From Planctomycetia bacterium (GTDB lineage Bacteria > Planctomycetota > Planctomycetia > Pirellulales > Thermoguttaceae): DNA of 40,414 nt. The translations under genes and the position numbers were made by a program. Within the stretch, counting starts at the first letter, position 1, and each line of letters starts with the position of its first letter. The notes under the pieces are model-generated. The model saw only the letters and a list, made by a program, of their open reading frames with translations, made no database searches and was not told where the DNA came from. Positions 8,367 through 28,822 of the stretch are shown one piece after another. The stretch is taken from contig JAPLNP010000435.1 in NCBI GenBank assembly GCA_026401055.1, forward strand, positions 1-40,414. The letters run 5' to 3'.

Positions 8367-10106
8367 ATGAAACGCCTCATCTGCCATCTCGTGTTGTTTA
8401 CGCTCCTTGTCGCCTGGGGCTCTGTCCCGTCGGTCGCGGCAGAGGCCAAGCCCGAGCAGCCGACCAAGACTGAGAAGGCCGCCAAGGACGAGAAGGCCGC
8501 CAAGGACGAGAAGGCTTCCAAGAGCGAGAAGCCGGCCAAGGGCGATGAGAAATCGAAAACCAAGGAATCCGCCAAGGCCAAGGAGTCGCCCAAGGCGGAA
8601 AAATCGCCCAAGACCGAAGCGGCGAAGCCCGCCGAGGGCGCCGAATCCGCCGGTGCGGCGAAGCACGAGGTGAAGAAGGGGCCCTTCTCCATCGAGGTCG
8701 AACTCAAGGGGGTCTTCGAGGCCCGGAAGATGACCGACGTCGCCATCCGGCCCGAACAGTGGACTTCTTTCACGGTGCTCAAGGCGGTCGAACACGGCAG
8801 CCGGGTGAAGCGGGGCGATCTGCTGGTGGCGGTCGAGACGGACAAGATCGACCAGGCCATCGCCGACTTGAAGACGAAGCAGCGGTTGTCGGACCTCGAT
8901 ATCGAGAGGGCCAAGCAGCAGTTGGCCGCGCTCGAGAAGCTCACGCCGATGGACCTCGTGGCAGCCGAGCGGAGCCGCCGGATCGCCAAAGAGGACCTCG
9001 CCCAGATGCTTGAGGTCGAGCTTCCCACCGCCCGGAAAACCGTCGATTTCTCGCTGCAAATGTCGGCCGACAACCTCGCCTACGAGAAAGAGGAGCTTAG
9101 CCAGCTCGATAAGATGTACAAAGCGGACGATCTCACGGAGGAGACCGAGGAGATCGTCCTCCGCCGCGCGCGGGACTCCGTCCGCCGCGCCGAGTTCTTC
9201 CACACGTTGGCCAAGCTGCGTCACGACGAGGCGTTGAAGTTCGGGCTACCCCGCGAGGAAGAGGGCGCCAAGGAGTCGACCCAGCGGACGACGCTGGCCG
9301 CTGAGGGGGCGAAGATCATTCTGCCCCTGACGCTCAAGAAGCAGCAACTGGACCTGGAGAAGATGAAGATCGAACGGACGCGGGACGACGAGACGCTCAA
9401 GGAGCTTCTGGCCGACCGGGAGTCGATGGTCATCAAGGCGCCCGTCGACGGCGTGGTCTACTGCGGCAGATTCGTCGACGGCGAGTGGAACGCCACGTCA
9501 TCCGAACAGTTGCAGCGCGGCGCGAGCCTGCCGGCGGGCAAGGTGTTCATGACGATCGTCCAGCCGCGGCCGATGGCGGTCCGGGCCGAGACGCCCGAAA
9601 AAGACCTGCAATACGTCCACCCCGGCCTGAAGGGTTCCGCCCGGCCGACCGGCTATCCGGACGTCAAGCTCTCGGCCATCGTCGCGGACGTGGCCGCCGT
9701 GCCCTCGGCCACCAACACGTTCGACACCAAGATCACCGTCGGCGACGAGGGCGATTCGTCGCTGATGCCGGGCATGACGTGTACGGTGAAGATGATCGGC
9801 TACCAGAAGAAGGACGCCTTGACGGTGCCCCCGTCGGCCTTGAAGACCGACCCGCTGGACGACGAGAAGCACTTCGTCCGGCTGGTCGACAAGAAGGGCG
9901 AGGCCAAGGAGCATCCGGTGACCGTGGGCAAGCGGACCGACAAGCTAGTCGAGATCCTCAAGGGTCTGTCCGAAGGCGACCAGGTGCTGCGCGAATACCC
10001 CAAGGACGACGACAAGAAGGCCCCCAAGGACGACGATAAGAAGTCCCCCAAGCATGACGACAAGAAAGCCCCGAAGGACGACGACAAGAAAGCCGAGAAG
10101 AAGTGA
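8367..10106 (+). CDS. HlyD-like periplasmic adaptor (membrane-fusion) protein with Lys-rich flanks
   Basis: A 579-residue exported protein. Residues 1-25 form a signal peptide (MKRLICHLVLFTLLVAWG...VAA). A Lys/Glu/Ala-rich low-complexity stretch (about 26-95) follows, with repeats such as AAKDEK. The adaptor core runs to about residue 545: a barrel-sandwich/biotinyl-lipoyl half (VLKAVEHGSRVKRGDLLVAV), a long alpha-hairpin rich in coiled coil (about 170-350), the second lipoyl half (MVIKAPVDGVVYCGRF) and a beta-barrel/MP-proximal domain ending in GLSEGDQVL. The C-terminus has repeats of the form KAPKDDDKK. Such adaptors normally join an ABC or RND pump to an outer-membrane channel, but no pump gene is nearby; the next gene is a squalene-cyclase-repeat protein 6 nt away. 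The start was chosen for its signal peptide and an upstream GGAG. Confidence 0.85.
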   Translation: MKRLICHLVLFTLLVAWGSVPSVAAEAKPEQPTKTEKAAKDEKAAKDEKASKSEKPAKGDEKSKTKESAKAKESPKAEKSPKTEAAKPAEGAESAGAAKHEVKKGPFSIEVELKGVFEARKMTDVAIRPEQWTSFTVLKAVEHGSRVKRGDLLVAVETDKIDQAIADLKTKQRLSDLDIERAKQQLAALEKLTPMDLVAAERSRRIAKEDLAQMLEVELPTARKTVDFSLQMSADNLAYEKEELSQLDKMYKADDLTEETEEIVLRRARDSVRRAEFFHTLAKLRHDEALKFGLPREEEGAKESTQRTTLAAEGAKIILPLTLKKQQLDLEKMKIERTRDDETLKELLADRESMVIKAPVDGVVYCGRFVDGEWNATSSEQLQRGASLPAGKVFMTIVQPRPMAVRAETPEKDLQYVHPGLKGSARPTGYPDVKLSAIVADVAAVPSATNTFDTKITVGDEGDSSLMPGMTCTVKMIGYQKKDALTVPPSALKTDPLDDEKHFVRLVDKKGEAKEHPVTVGKRTDKLVEILKGLSEGDQVLREYPKDDDKKAPKDDDKKSPKHDDKKAPKDDDKKAEKK

Positions 10107-17846: not shown

Positions 17847-20141
17847 TCAAACGGTCTCGACCATCACGCGGTTCCCGTGGACTTCGACCACGGTGATCGC
17901 CGCGTTTTTGTCGATCAATTCCCCCCGGGCGATGACGTCGACCAATTCGTCGCCGAAGCGGGCCTTCCCGCTCGGGGTCAGTTGGGTCGTGGTGACGCCC
18001 TGCCGGCCGACAAGTCGACGGAAATCGACCAGGGATTCGCTCTGGGTAAGTTGTTGTTTCTCTTCGTCGGACAGCGGGGCAAGCATGACACGATTCAAGA
18101 ACGGCGCGCGGGGCAGCCACCGGTTCATCAGCGCGGCCAGAACGACAAAACCAAGCGATGCGCCCCCGACGATGGTCAGCGAGGTCTGAAGCTGGTCCAT
18201 CTGGTACTCGTTGTGCGGCAGGATGAACGTCTGGCTGGCCAGGATCAGCGAGGCGATGACCATCGCCCCGCCCCCGAGTCCGAAGATGCCGAATCCGGGA
18301 ATCACGAACACTTCCAGGACGAGACACGCGATTCCGGCGAGGAAAAGGATCGCTTCGAGCCATCCGGCGGTCCCGCCGAGAAACCGGCTCCAGAAGAACA
18401 AAAGGAAACAGACCGCGGCGATGAACGCGCCGATGCCGACGCCCGGCGCATGGAGTTCGGCATAAACGGCCGCGGCGCCGATCATCAAAAGCAACACCGC
18501 CACGCCCGGCGAACCCATCGCCCGGATCAGGAAATCGGCCCAGCTTGGCTCGACCAGCGTGGGATCGTCTTCCAGGCCGTAAAGCTCCTTGAACCGCGAA
18601 AAATCCTCGACCGTGCGATTGGCCAGCCGGAAATCGACCGCCGTCGCGCCGTCGGCCCGAAACAACCCGCCGGGCGTCGTCACCCGTTGCCCGGGCGTCC
18701 ACTGCTTCGGCTCCGGCTGATCGGAGCGTTCCTCTTCCGAGAAATACTCGACCGTACCCAGCCGCGTGCAGCGAAACACCTCCAAACTCCGGTCGACCAT
18801 CGCCACCGGCAGCGACCAGGATCGCGACTTGGCCGGCGCGAGGACCTTGCGGATCGTGTCGCGGACGCTCTCGACCTCGATGTCCGAGAGTTCATGGGCG
18901 CCGGGGCCGCCCAGCACGGCGTCCGGTCCCATCACTACCTGGTCGCACGCCAGGGCGACCACCGCCGCGTCGCTGCGCGCCTCCGACGGAACATAAGCCA
19001 CCGTGCGAACCTTGCTCGGCGAAAGGTCCGCGAGAAAACTCGCCAGGCGAACGCTGTCGGCGGGCGACCCGCCCGGACTGTCGATCCAGAGGCAGATAAA
19101 GTTCACGCCCTGCTGCTGGATCGCGTCGCTTATGAGTCGCTCGGCCTGGGTGATCTTCTCGGCGTCCAGCGGCCCCTTCAAGTGCACCTGGATCGCGTGC
19201 CACTTCTCCACGAGCGAGAGGTCTTCCTCGAGCGACTCCGGCGGGAGTTCCAGCGCCCGGGCCGCCGCGCGCCGATCGGTGGCCAGGTAGCTGACGAACC
19301 CCAGCCGCCGCGCCTGTTCGCCCGTGAACTGGCCCGGTTCGCCCTTGGGAATCACGACCTTCTGGCCGGCGATGGTCCGCCGCTGGCGGAGTTCGGCCAA
19401 TCCCTCGGGCGTGACGAACTCGCGGCTCACGTCGGTCTCGACCTCGAGGACCTCGCGGCTCGGGTCCAACATGCCCAGGGCCAATTCGACGGGCACGGTC
19501 CGCCGGCGGTTGGCGATCTCGCGGTAGCCGGCGAGCATGACGTCCGCGATCGTCTTCTCGTCGATGCCCGCCGAGCCGATCGAGGCGTCCGGGGCCATGA
19601 TAATCTCGTCGCAAGCCAGCGCGACCAGGACGGCGTGTCCTTGGATGGAGCGGGGGATGTAGGCGACGGTCGTGGCGGCGTTGAGTGCGTCGCTGGAGAG
19701 GTATCGGGCGAGTTCGAGCGAGGCGCCGAATTGGCTGCCGCGGCCGAATTGCTCCTTGCCGGCCGGAACGTCCAGTTGGAGAATCAATACCGGCCGGTAA
19801 TGGTTCTTCCGGGCGTCCTCCAGGACACGGTCGACAAATCGCTTCACCAGCCGGTCCGTGTCACTAACGATTGGTAGCGTAACGCTGAGCACGCGACCCA
19901 CCCGACGCGGTTCGGCCTCGTCCTTGGCAGCCTTATCCTTGGCGGGCTCGTCCGCCTCGGCCGGCAGCTTCTGGACGGCGGGCTCCTTTTCGGCCGGCGC
20001 GATCTTCTCGGCGCCGGGCTCGTTGTCCTTCGCCGAGGCAACGCCCCGGAGCGAGACGGCAAGACAGACCGCGACCATCGCGGTGCCGATGATTCGACAG
20101 CGCCCGAGTCGGGTCTTCGATGAACCGAGCCAACGTGTCAT
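17847..20141 (-). CDS. Long NfeD protein with two ClpP/SppA-like domains
   Basis: A 764-residue membrane protein. Residues 1-37 form an Arg-rich signal peptide ending in VASA, followed by a charged linker. Two crotonase/ClpP-like domains follow, about residues 85-310 and 315-500. In the first, the region expected to hold the nucleophile Ser reads IQGHAVLVALACDE, so Ser appears replaced; in the second, ARSDAAVVALACDQ keeps a Ser (about residue 390), and WIDSPGG precedes it. Four to five helices (about 530-660) and an OB-fold (about 690-762) complete the NfeD plan. The ATG at 20141 was preferred to the in-frame start at 20210 because it opens the signal peptide. It is the first gene of the NfeD-NfeD-FloA-hypothetical operon. 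Confidence 0.9.
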   Translation of the reverse strand: MTRWLGSSKTRLGRCRIIGTAMVAVCLAVSLRGVASAKDNEPGAEKIAPAEKEPAVQKLPAEADEPAKDKAAKDEAEPRRVGRVLSVTLPIVSDTDRLVKRFVDRVLEDARKNHYRPVLILQLDVPAGKEQFGRGSQFGASLELARYLSSDALNAATTVAYIPRSIQGHAVLVALACDEIIMAPDASIGSAGIDEKTIADVMLAGYREIANRRRTVPVELALGMLDPSREVLEVETDVSREFVTPEGLAELRQRRTIAGQKVVIPKGEPGQFTGEQARRLGFVSYLATDRRAAARALELPPESLEEDLSLVEKWHAIQVHLKGPLDAEKITQAERLISDAIQQQGVNFICLWIDSPGGSPADSVRLASFLADLSPSKVRTVAYVPSEARSDAAVVALACDQVVMGPDAVLGGPGAHELSDIEVESVRDTIRKVLAPAKSRSWSLPVAMVDRSLEVFRCTRLGTVEYFSEEERSDQPEPKQWTPGQRVTTPGGLFRADGATAVDFRLANRTVEDFSRFKELYGLEDDPTLVEPSWADFLIRAMGSPGVAVLLLMIGAAAVYAELHAPGVGIGAFIAAVCFLLFFWSRFLGGTAGWLEAILFLAGIACLVLEVFVIPGFGIFGLGGGAMVIASLILASQTFILPHNEYQMDQLQTSLTIVGGASLGFVVLAALMNRWLPRAPFLNRVMLAPLSDEEKQQLTQSESLVDFRRLVGRQGVTTTQLTPSGKARFGDELVDVIARGELIDKNAAITVVEVHGNRVMVETV

Positions 20142-20189
20142 GACACCGCCGTGTCGGTCCGGGGGAGAGGGCCACTGGCAGCCGATCAC

Positions 20190-20204
20190 GGGGGACTGTC
20201 CCCC
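20190..20204. repeat. GGGGGAC-T-GTCCCCC palindrome
   Basis: A perfect 7-bp stem around a single T. It lies 48 bp upstream of the long NfeD start and shares the GGGGAC core with the hairpin repeats at 478 and 14566, so it may be a short remnant of that family. An operator function is also possible. Confidence 0.5.
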
Positions 20205-20299
20205 TCGCACTCGCCTCGCCGTTCAGGCAGTGTATTATAGTAGCGCGGCCGGGGGGTCGTCAATTCAGCGCCAAGGGCGGAATGCCGCCCCTGGACTCT

Positions 20300-25745: not shown

Positions 25746-26246
25746 CTACTCGGCCCAGTCCTCGAAGGCGAGCAGATCGGAGGTCACCTCCCGGAGTCTG
25801 TCCATTTTGTCGTGCGTTACGAGGACGAGATTGGACTCATAGGCCTGAGCAGCTATCCACAGATCGTTCTCTTGGATGCCGAGGCACTTGGCTGTGAGCG
25901 GATCGACCAACTGGCACGGCCGTAGACGTTTCTTCCCGTTCCTTGGAGCGAATTTATTGAAGAGCCTGGCTCTGATCTGCCCATAGTAAGTCGAGGTACT
26001 CCGCTGAATAGTGAGCACGCGAGGAACCCTCGCGTTCACGAAACGCCTGAATGCGAACTGAACGGCCGTGTCCGCGTCAGAAACACAGCGATGGCCGTAT
26101 TCCGTCTCCCCCAATGAAATCGCAGATATTCCGAGCGGTGCGCTCGGGCCAAGAGCATCTATGCGATCGACGACCTTCTCATGCTCGCGCCGCTCCTCAT
26201 CAAACCAGTAGGCGAGCATGTTCGTATCGAGCAAGTACCCCTGCAT
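25746..26246 (-). CDS. PIN-domain protein (VapC-like putative RNase)
   Basis: A 166-residue protein with the PIN fold expected of VapC-type RNases. The acidic metal-binding residues are visible: Asp7 in LLDTNML, Glu47 in LGETEYG, Asp128 in ENDLWIAAQA and Asp146 in VTHDKM. The length is slightly above a typical VapC. No vapB-type antitoxin gene is found upstream; the gene before it is the large DNA methyltransferase, whose stop codon is only 5 nt away. This suggests the methyltransferase, or its C-terminal helical tail, may take the antitoxin or partner role. An alternative is an ordinary toxin gene picked up downstream of an unrelated methylase. Base composition is lower in GC than the flanking chromosome. 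Confidence 0.88.
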   Translation of the reverse strand: MQGYLLDTNMLAYWFDEERREHEKVVDRIDALGPSAPLGISAISLGETEYGHRCVSDADTAVQFAFRRFVNARVPRVLTIQRSTSTYYGQIRARLFNKFAPRNGKKRLRPCQLVDPLTAKCLGIQENDLWIAAQAYESNLVLVTHDKMDRLREVTSDLLAFEDWAE

Positions 26247-26251
26247 GGCCG

Positions 26252-28822
26252 CTACTCCTCGAACGCTTTCATTGCCTCATCCAGGGCGCGCAGCAATTCG
26301 GGTGGGACCTTGGGTTCAGTCCGACCTCGCAAGTACCCCGCGGTCGAGGCGGCATACGCATCGGACAGATAGTCGTGAAGATGGAAACATGGTTCATAAT
26401 CATCCGGATAGTAGCGATCAAAACGGAATGGCACGCCCTGCCGTTCCCAGCCCGCGAAGAGATCCAAGAGTTGCCGTTCCAGTCGGGGAGGGAAGTCGTA
26501 GAGGCGGAGAATCTCGGCGTCGATTCGCAGTAGGAGACGGCAAGCCACCTCTGCATCTGTGGACGCTTTCAGTCCCTCGTCATCCTTCCCGACCGCTTGA
26601 AGATAGTCGCTCACGGCGCCCGTCACACGATCCACGTCTGCCGCCGACGCGTCAGGCACCGGCAACTTGCGAATCATCCCGACAAGGTTGTCTCGTTTTC
26701 CGGAATGAGTGTAGGCAAACGCATTCGCGACCGGCGAATTGAGAACTGCCCAAAGGCATTCGAGCGACCACGCCTGCGACAGTGGTCTCACGGTGATGAA
26801 GCGGCTCGTTACGGCATGTCCTTCTCCGTCGAAGACCGCCTTCAACCTCCAAGGGCCGCGGCTCACCCGGGCGTAATTCAACAGGATCTGGGGAATGCCC
26901 GTCGTCGCGCCGGTAACCGTCCGGTCCACAACGGAAGGGTCGAGGTTCAGCCACACTTCACGAGGCTGCCCGTCCAGACGGACACCCTCGTACCACACGG
27001 CGAACCCCTTCTTTGCCCCGGCAAATCGCCGTTTGCTAACCGTGACGGCACCCGCCGGAAGGCTGCCGGCGCCCCGGAAAAACATGCCCTGGCCAACGAT
27101 GGCAAACTGCGAAAGGCGGGGCATGGCCTCGCAGAACGCCCACACATCCACGCGCTCGGGTACCCGCAGATCCCAGTTATTCTCCGACGAGACCTGTGCC
27201 TGGTCTGCGCGATGCGTGACGGAGAAGCAATAGTCGAGTCGGAAGCGATCCGCATCATGCCTCCGGACGATGCGGTGGTTATAGGTATGGCCTGTCTGGC
27301 GTCGATCGCCCACTTTCCGCCCGATCACCACCGCCGATTCCATGTCCGACAATTTGAAGATGTTGTCGGGAAACTCACAGACCTCCAAGACCTCGAAGTC
27401 CCGGACAAGGTACTGTCGCAAGTCCGCCGCATTCTTGCTCGAGAGAATTGTCTGTGGAACCACCAGTCCGAAAACCGCACCCATGGGAAGTGCCGGCAGC
27501 GTCCGCCCCAGCACTTCCGCCGTCTTGTTTGCGTATCGTGGCTCAACACCTCGCCTTCGATAGGCCGACTTCTCTCGGGGTGTGAAGTCCTCGAAGGGCG
27601 GGTTGGCCAGAAGCACCATCGCCGTCCCGGCTTGCCGCTGAAGAACTTCACCCTCGAACATGTCGCCCAGGCGCAAATCCCAGCCGTTAGGATTGGGGAT
27701 GTCGGCCAATGTCAACGAGAGACGAGCGATTTCAAGGGCAAAAGCATCGATCTCGTGCCCGTGCAGCCGCTGGCGCAAATACTCGTGCTGCGTCTCGAAA
27801 TGGGATATGTTCTGCGGAAGCATGTCCCTCAATAGACGCATCGCGGAAATCAAGAAGGCAGCATGTCCGCACGCGGGCTCAAATACGTTCCTTTGCTCGG
27901 GTGGAATCTCCTCGATCCAAGGCGCGAGTCTGCCGACGACGTAATCAACGAGGTAAGACGGCGTGCTGTGCGTTCCGAGTTCGAGACGAGTTTCTTTCGA
28001 AATGAGTGTGTTCTCGTAGACGTAGGCCAGGCACTCCGTCGTCGTGACCGCCAGGTTGCTGAATTGCGCAATGGTGGCCGCAGCTTCGATCAGCGCATCA
28101 CGCCGTCGGCTCCCGCCGACCGGAATGAGGGCACTTGTCCGGTAGTGTCGCGCCACGCGTCGGAAAACATCGTTCACGTCCGACAGATCGACGTCGACAA
28201 ACGCCGGCACCATCTTGTCACGGAGGATTCGGGCGGCCAGCAGCCAGAATGCGGACTTCAGCAGCCAATCGGGCGTCAGGCGTTCCCGCCGCAACCGTGA
28301 TTTGAGTCCGGAAACGGTCCTGGCAATCAAATCGCCCAGGCCCTTGCCAATATGGCTCTCGACAAGCGGCATCAGTCCAACGTCGACGAAAGTCCGTTGG
28401 TATTGCGCGTCGAACCGCCCCCAAGTCTTCGCCCGATATACCGCATTGGGCGAGAATTCATCGCCGTGACTCTGGAAGAAGCGGTCGACTTCCGCACAAG
28501 GAACGGTCTTGACGGACTCCGGGCCTTGCACCGCCTGTTTCCACCACTGCAAGTTCCCCTGCCAGCACGCAAAAACGACCGGCGCCCCTAGATCGCGGCA
28601 GTGAGAAACCGTGACCATCGGATCGGATTCGACATCAACCGCCACAACGCACGCCGACCGAGCGTCCGCCGGACTGTGAGCGAAACCAACGAGAGGAGCC
28701 ACTTCATTGCCAAAGCGATAGTCGACGCGCAGCAAGTCGCCCACATACCCACAGGCTTGCAGGCGTGGCTTCAAAGAGGCGGCATTGAATCCCCGGTCAC
28801 GAATGATGGAAGCAACCTCCAT
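26252..28822 (-). CDS. Large N6-adenine DNA methyltransferase (type IIG/Eco57I-like)
   Basis: This 856-residue protein holds the class I MTase motifs in order: THSTPSYLVDYVV (residues 284-296, motif X region), VFEPACGHAAFL (313-324, AdoMet motif I), HGHEIDAFALEIARLSL (354-370) and the catalytic LLANPPFEDF (404-413, motif IV). This order fits gamma-type N6-adenine enzymes. The long C-terminal part (about 520-750) probably holds target recognition. The first 135 residues might be a nuclease domain, but no PD-(D/E)XK motif can be asserted. The C-terminal 40 residues are helical and acidic. The start has AGGA just upstream. No specificity subunit or separate endonuclease gene is present; the PIN gene follows after 5 nt. 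The GC content and codon mix look foreign to the neighbours. Confidence 0.88.
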   Translation of the reverse strand: MEVASIIRDRGFNAASLKPRLQACGYVGDLLRVDYRFGNEVAPLVGFAHSPADARSACVVAVDVESDPMVTVSHCRDLGAPVVFACWQGNLQWWKQAVQGPESVKTVPCAEVDRFFQSHGDEFSPNAVYRAKTWGRFDAQYQRTFVDVGLMPLVESHIGKGLGDLIARTVSGLKSRLRRERLTPDWLLKSAFWLLAARILRDKMVPAFVDVDLSDVNDVFRRVARHYRTSALIPVGGSRRRDALIEAAATIAQFSNLAVTTTECLAYVYENTLISKETRLELGTHSTPSYLVDYVVGRLAPWIEEIPPEQRNVFEPACGHAAFLISAMRLLRDMLPQNISHFETQHEYLRQRLHGHEIDAFALEIARLSLTLADIPNPNGWDLRLGDMFEGEVLQRQAGTAMVLLANPPFEDFTPREKSAYRRRGVEPRYANKTAEVLGRTLPALPMGAVFGLVVPQTILSSKNAADLRQYLVRDFEVLEVCEFPDNIFKLSDMESAVVIGRKVGDRRQTGHTYNHRIVRRHDADRFRLDYCFSVTHRADQAQVSSENNWDLRVPERVDVWAFCEAMPRLSQFAIVGQGMFFRGAGSLPAGAVTVSKRRFAGAKKGFAVWYEGVRLDGQPREVWLNLDPSVVDRTVTGATTGIPQILLNYARVSRGPWRLKAVFDGEGHAVTSRFITVRPLSQAWSLECLWAVLNSPVANAFAYTHSGKRDNLVGMIRKLPVPDASAADVDRVTGAVSDYLQAVGKDDEGLKASTDAEVACRLLLRIDAEILRLYDFPPRLERQLLDLFAGWERQGVPFRFDRYYPDDYEPCFHLHDYLSDAYAASTAGYLRGRTEPKVPPELLRALDEAMKAFEE

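Follow-up and report, generated by a model that had tools for sequence, protein, structure and literature searches.

A two-gene module of an N6-adenine DNA methyltransferase and exchangeable nuclease or toxin effectors, with effector-matched methyltransferase tails, in diverse bacteria

The window analyzed here, a 40,414-nucleotide stretch of DNA from a Planctomycetia bacterium (family Thermoguttaceae; assembly GCA_026401055.1, contig JAPLNP010000435.1), contains on its minus strand a gene for a gamma-class N6-adenine DNA methyltransferase (MTase; 26252..28822, 856 amino acids) and, 5 nucleotides downstream on the same strand, a gene for a VapC-fold PIN nuclease (25746..26246, 166 amino acids). 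We found that this pair belongs to a rare two-gene module in which the MTase is the constant gene, the downstream effector is exchangeable and the C-terminal tail of the MTase changes with the effector. An earlier reading of the locus made without database searches (the sequence-only reading) had described a gamma-type MTase followed by a VapC-like PIN gene, with no vapB, separate endonuclease or specificity (S) subunit, and both genes were confirmed by their open reading frames, Pfam matches and motifs. Among the open reading frames of the window, no vapB-like or restriction endonuclease gene adjoined either gene, and the upstream slot in which VapBC operons would carry VapB beside VapC was occupied by the MTase. 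Neither hsdS nor hsdR adjoined the module in the window, so the arrangement is not that of a Type I restriction-modification (R-M) or PrrC-type system.

The MTase matched the Pfam families N6_Mtase (E=2.4e-16) and MmeI_Mtase (8.4e-8). Its catalytic core (residues 261-545, 27188..28042, minus strand like all features of the pair) contains motif X (GTHSTP, residues 283-288), motif I (VFEPACGHAAFL, residues 313-324) and motif IV (NPPF, residues 407-410), and NPP was invariant in 87 of 87 relatives. The core is followed by a putative target recognition domain (TRD; residues about 546-750, 26573..27187), assigned from its position after motif IV and from a fold match to CamA and M.BseCI; motifs X, I and IV in this order, with a TRD-like region on their C-terminal side, characterize the gamma class. 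The AlphaFold2 model (predicted local distance difference test, pLDDT, 91.4; predicted template modelling score, pTM, 0.88) showed helices at the C-terminus, and its best Foldseek matches were CamA, M.BseCI, BrxX/PglX, BpuSI, DrdV and MmeI, those to CamA and M.BseCI spanning the MTase plus the TRD-like region. The missing S subunit is thus not odd, since a C-terminal TRD-like region is built into the enzyme itself, just as in CamA, M.BseCI and type IIG enzymes. Upstream of the core, DSSP analysis of the model delimited an N-terminal domain (residues 14-108, 28499..28783) with alpha-beta3-alpha-beta2 topology and a helical connector (residues 109-252, 28067..28498). The topology of the N-terminal domain resembles that of PD-(D/E)XK nucleases, from which we infer that it may be a degenerate domain of this kind. 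The E-x-K signature was absent from the conserved N-domain columns of 75 MTases, where A57/C58 and GAP 79-81 were conserved instead, so the protein shows no recognizable active PD-(D/E)XK site within the MTase chain, which would define a type IIG enzyme; it would therefore rely on its effector in trans. In hhalign comparisons the N-domain matched neither a BseRI-like type IIG protein nor three own-genome MTases.

The downstream protein matched Pfam PIN (E=2.3e-12), and the best Foldseek matches of its AlphaFold2 model (pLDDT 89.7) were the VapC proteins of Shigella, the F-plasmid, Salmonella and Rickettsia. The acidic residues had been read as intact, and D7, E47, D128 and D146 were invariant in 59 homologues; with its PIN fold and these four acids, the protein is a PIN/VapC nuclease. 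VapC enzymes cleave tRNA or rRNA, and for this reason a ribonuclease (RNase) function is our best guess for it. A basic insert (residues 101-122, 25881..25946; pLDDT 52-63), recognized in the alignment, is typical of this PIN subfamily, and ordinary VapC proteins aligned to the family model over positions 3-121 at most. The subfamily had three strong matches in the 294 genomes sampled from the window's phylum, all of them beside the MTase, and the remaining matches to the model were ordinary VapC-like proteins (1e-10 to 1e-13).

A contig search with the single window protein as query found nothing; a six-member MTase profile recovered 165 relatives in one-per-species genomes, of which the nearest half (80 loci) was kept. 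Together with plasmid and whole-genome matches this gave 87 distinct MTase loci, three of which end at a contig edge. In all 84 loci with downstream sequence, an effector gene was located behind the MTase on the same strand, nearly always at a distance of a few nucleotides or overlapping it. The window-type PIN accounted for 63 loci, and the other 21 had another nuclease or toxin in the slot: HNH1 (13), HNH2 (1), HEPN (4), a second type of PIN (2) and RES (1, locus L010). The sequence-only reading had stated that homologous MTases found mostly without a PIN neighbour would speak against it, which is not what these counts revealed. Ten further loci, found later in whole-genome samples and lying outside the models, also had an effector in every case. 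The MTase and its effector are a true two-gene module, and their linkage is not a matter of chance. Two of the 63 window-type PIN loci hold an extra, different PIN between the MTase and the PIN (L042:8778-9278 and 9220-9828; L045:8772-9251 and 9196-9801). Representatives of PIN, HNH and RES scored above the Pfam cut-off; HEPN was at the cut-off (21.9 of 22.0 bits, with a second copy lower), so this identity is likely, but weaker than the other three.

When effectors were placed on the MTase tree, its well-supported branches forced at least seven effector changes. PIN was the commonest and most widespread partner, and the window's PIN type appeared on either side of the deepest split. The sister of the window MTase is the HNH-paired group (Shimodaira-Hasegawa-like approximate likelihood ratio test, SH-aLRT, 89), yet this MTase itself is paired with PIN, which places it beside one of these replacements. 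A single DNA-reading enzyme appears to have accommodated four or more mutually unrelated effector folds (PIN, HNH, HEPN and RES), with changes mainly in its tail.

The domains of the MTase were nearly constant in length across effector types, except for the segment after residue 795. This tail measured 55-65 residues with the window-type PIN, 70 with the second PIN type, 90-101 with HNH1, 114-120 with HEPN, 126 with HNH2 and 172 with RES; the HNH2 tail was an exception in kind, having a PIN-like start and then an extension. At the tandem-PIN loci L042 and L045 the tail (108-109 residues) was of PIN type with about 48 residues added, as though there were one docking segment per PIN. In the window the PIN-type tail covers residues 796-856 (26255..26437) and has the consensus VxFxF.xYxP.xF...IPLHxYxS. 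Tail sequence also tracked the effector: at a core identity of 50-60%, the median tail score was 205 for MTases with the same effector versus 43 for those with different ones, and across the deep split (core identity about 30%) the medians were 70 and 29, respectively, the 99th percentile of shuffled-tail scores being 36. The core of the window MTase was closest to HNH-paired enzymes, whereas its tail matched only PIN-paired ones, scoring 187 to the PIN-paired L011 and no more than 60 to any HNH1-paired MTase with an equally close or closer core. The best tail match also predicted the right effector in all ten later loci, two of which are near-copies of earlier loci and eight clearly distinct. 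For PIN-paired loci, PIN distance correlated more strongly with tail distance (r 0.87; partial r 0.63 given the core) than with core distance, and the partial values for the N-domain (0.36) and the helical connector (0.19) were both lower; the pairs are not phylogenetically independent, and the correlation is therefore to be read as a ranking of domains and not as a probability. Based on these sequence comparisons, and in line with the earlier suggestion that the C-terminal tail is coupled to the PIN protein, we conclude that the tail should be the element joining the MTase to its effector, by inhibition, recruitment or both.

Several observations concern the surroundings of this slot. About a dozen loci, of Alphaproteobacteria and sulfate-reducer lineages, have a MerR-like or helix-turn-helix-like gene of 150-190 amino acids directly upstream, often overlapping the MTase start (L008:5468-5965, L009:5516-5989, L010:5468-5956, L077:5504-5986, L087:5466-5966, L085:5423-5992, L051:3179-3703 and others; Pfam MerR_1 was confirmed for L077). 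It may encode a control protein; being present in a minority of loci and absent from the window, it was excluded from the core module. In a distantly related sister family of MTases that shares the N-domain, a metallo-beta-lactamase (MBL)-fold hydrolase (Lactamase_B, weak) lies directly behind the MTase (L109:144-1205 and L110:1-1188, both on the minus strand), perhaps as another effector type. Some copies looked decayed, with a broken PIN in L027 and L055 and an interrupted MTase frame beside an intact effector in L005 and L029; assembly error is possible, and these four were left out as evidence on toxicity.

The module was patchily distributed across at least nine phyla, its hosts including Planctomycetota, Acidobacteriota, Verrucomicrobiota, Nitrospirota, Nitrospinota, Thermodesulfobacteriota, Pseudomonadota, Chloroflexota, Omnitrophota and others, and large Rhizobiaceae plasmids were among its locations. 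It was rare: 5 genomes out of 294 in the window's phylum carried it, as did 6 of 101 in its family and 2 of 247, 1 of 289 and 3 of 385 in three further groups chosen around known carriers; in phylum or class samples the share was about 0.3-2%. The host genome of the window has one copy of this MTase family; another genome of the window's taxonomic family (G315) has three MTase modules, all HNH-paired (contigs C235, C1151 and C1334; loci L142, L146 and L148). As had been noticed before, the guanine-plus-cytosine (GC) content of the module is lower than that of its surroundings: in a comparison made within the window it was 59.4% versus 64.9% for the rest, with the window's minimum coinciding with the module, and GC at third codon positions (GC3) was 0.69 versus 0.84-0.87 in two neighbouring genes. 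Low GC together with the patchy distribution suggests transfer of the module. The flanks carry an MGMT-type methyltransferase gene (convergent), a sigma factor gene and a URO-D gene; in an empty-site comparison only the sigma-factor gene was common to the loci of nine relatives, so the borders of the module were not definable.

The explanation that we consider the best, and to which we give about an even chance, is that the MTase restrains its effector and releases it upon a methylation or damage trigger. The MTase would be a type IIG-like scaffold (N-domain, helical connector, N6-MTase and TRD) without a recognizable nuclease active site, which would methylate its own site in the host genome and read the methylation state of DNA. 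Its effector-specific tail would bind the effector, here a presumed PIN endoribonuclease, and keep it inactive, and release would follow from an encounter of the MTase with unmethylated incoming sites or from inhibition or loss of the MTase; the freed PIN could then cleave RNA, stop translation and end the infection at the cell's expense (abortive infection). Since PIN, HEPN, RES and HNH interchange behind one MTase, the MTase is probably the decision and the effector the blow. The nearest proven logic is that of PrrI-PrrC, where modification proteins keep an RNase latent: the PrrI R-M complex keeps PrrC inactive until unmodified DNA or Stp activates it (PMC3506569, PMC3710099). The sequence-only reading had proposed such a restraint for the MTase and PIN, with a trigger for release and abortive infection as the possible outcome; its two-gene unit and tail coupling stood, and its account was incomplete, as PIN is one of several interchangeable effectors. 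In a wider and more novel form, which we hold with somewhat less than even confidence, the stand-alone MTase may be a plug-in immune sensor that marks self, reads methylation and controls unrelated killers (PIN, HEPN, HNH, RES and perhaps the MBL hydrolase of the sister family) through a swappable tail adaptor, a minimal two-gene join of R-M and toxin-antitoxin logic.

A different explanation, which seems rather unlikely to us, is an R-M system with the nuclease in trans, in which the MTase protects host DNA and the tail recruits HNH, or PIN acting as a DNase, against unmethylated DNA. The presence of HNH among the interchangeable effectors makes a restriction-like mode possible: the separate endonuclease characteristic of Type II R-M might be represented by HNH in 14 of 84 loci, and the MTase has the fold of the restriction enzymes BpuSI, DrdV and MmeI. 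PIN-fold enzymes of the FEN1 group do cut DNA. However, the PIN model was nearest to VapC ribonucleases, PIN, HEPN or RES occupied the slot in the other 70 loci, with PIN the most frequent and most broadly spread partner on the tree, and no known HEPN or RES protein is a DNase, which we take as an argument for cell damage as the output common to the effectors. Less probable still would be an addiction or toxin-antitoxin pair lacking a methylation trigger, with the MTase serving as antitoxin by tail binding and the pair maintaining mobile DNA. The two-gene operon without vapB, the strict linkage seen from both the MTase and the PIN side, the plasmid copies and the signs of transfer would agree with it, whereas many copies have housekeeping neighbours, and a conserved MTase of 856 residues with NPP in 87 of 87 relatives exceeds what an antitoxin needs, so catalysis or DNA reading probably matters. 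That the MTase is an epigenetic regulator with unrelated downstream passengers is highly improbable: its fold is CamA-like and lone MTases with regulatory roles exist, but the linkage was 100% and exclusively to nuclease or toxin families, the tails changed in concert and the module was rare.

Some observations weigh against the restraint model that we prefer. The expected co-occurrence at defence islands was not observed, as the neighbours were mostly housekeeping genes with no visible enrichment of defence genes in PADLOC and Pfam neighbour scans, and searches of phages and viral contigs revealed no full-length homologue among the former and no relatives on the latter. A partner-matched tail could recruit the effector rather than inhibit it. 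The HNH partners could be ordinary restriction nucleases, in which case the ancestral logic may be restriction, and the catalytic competence of the HEPN copies is uncertain, a motif H being Q in L053. Finally, the PD-(D/E)XK reading of the N-domain comes from topology only, and the profile comparison was negative.

Compared with known systems, the module shares parts with several. Like EcoprrI (PrrI)-PrrC, it has an RNase-type toxin without its own antitoxin, encoded with DNA-modification genes (PMC3506569, PMC3710099); in contrast with the full type Ic hsdMSR of that system and with PrrC, an ABC-ATPase-HEPN fusion, it pairs a single MTase with a small PIN and lacks an ATPase, a translocase and an S subunit. 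The MTase resembles the type IIG/IIL enzymes MmeI, DrdV and BpuSI in joining an N-terminal domain, helical connector, N6-MTase and TRD in a single chain, but no nuclease site is recognizable in its N-domain and a separate effector gene is always present. The PIN fold is nearest to enterobacterial-type VapC with the four acids kept; unlike in VapBC, there is no VapB, the PIN has a basic insert and the MTase fills the upstream slot. A related N6-MTase fold is used for defence by PglX/BrxX of BREX and MAD2 of MADS, although the MTase fell far short of the NCBIfam cut-offs (32 of 720 bits for MAD2 and 24 of 500 for PglX) and the other genes of these systems were absent. The RES toxin of L010 recalls Xre-RES, but its partner is an MTase and not an Xre antitoxin. 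Neither gene matched a system-specific model in NCBIfam or PADLOC-DB 2.0: in the latter the MTase hit mostly generic MTase_I/II models (mad2 at only 58 bits) and the PIN had no match. An MTase with an exchangeable effector and a matched tail was not described in PADLOC, NCBIfam or the literature searched, which covered few subscription journals or preprints.

For multi-subunit R-M systems, coupling of modification to toxins and displacement of toxins have already been proposed, and both have been reported in BREX; recent work validated antitoxin-free PIN nucleases as defence (DS-3 and DS-5). In 2012 it was hypothesized that immunity proteins restrain associated toxins, which are repeatedly replaced (immunity-suicide coupling; PMC3506569), and the module described here provides a minimal natural test case for this hypothesis. 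The change of the tail with the effector shows where to look for the coupling element and makes it testable. Should the tail indeed transfer control, two genes would connect the DNA methylation state to a chosen effector.

A few copies had defence genes nearby. On an Agrobacterium plasmid these are a PADLOC candidate helicase (PDC-S28; L008:2499-4973) and a Shedu-type protein (L008:9139-9954); L010, on a Rhizobium plasmid, has a BseRI-like type IIG gene (L010:2367-5372), and L053 has a type I S-subunit-like gene (L053:4717-5925). Elsewhere in the window, an NfeD-type membrane protein with a ClpP-like protease domain (Pfam NfeD and SDH_protease) is encoded at 17847-20210 on the minus strand.
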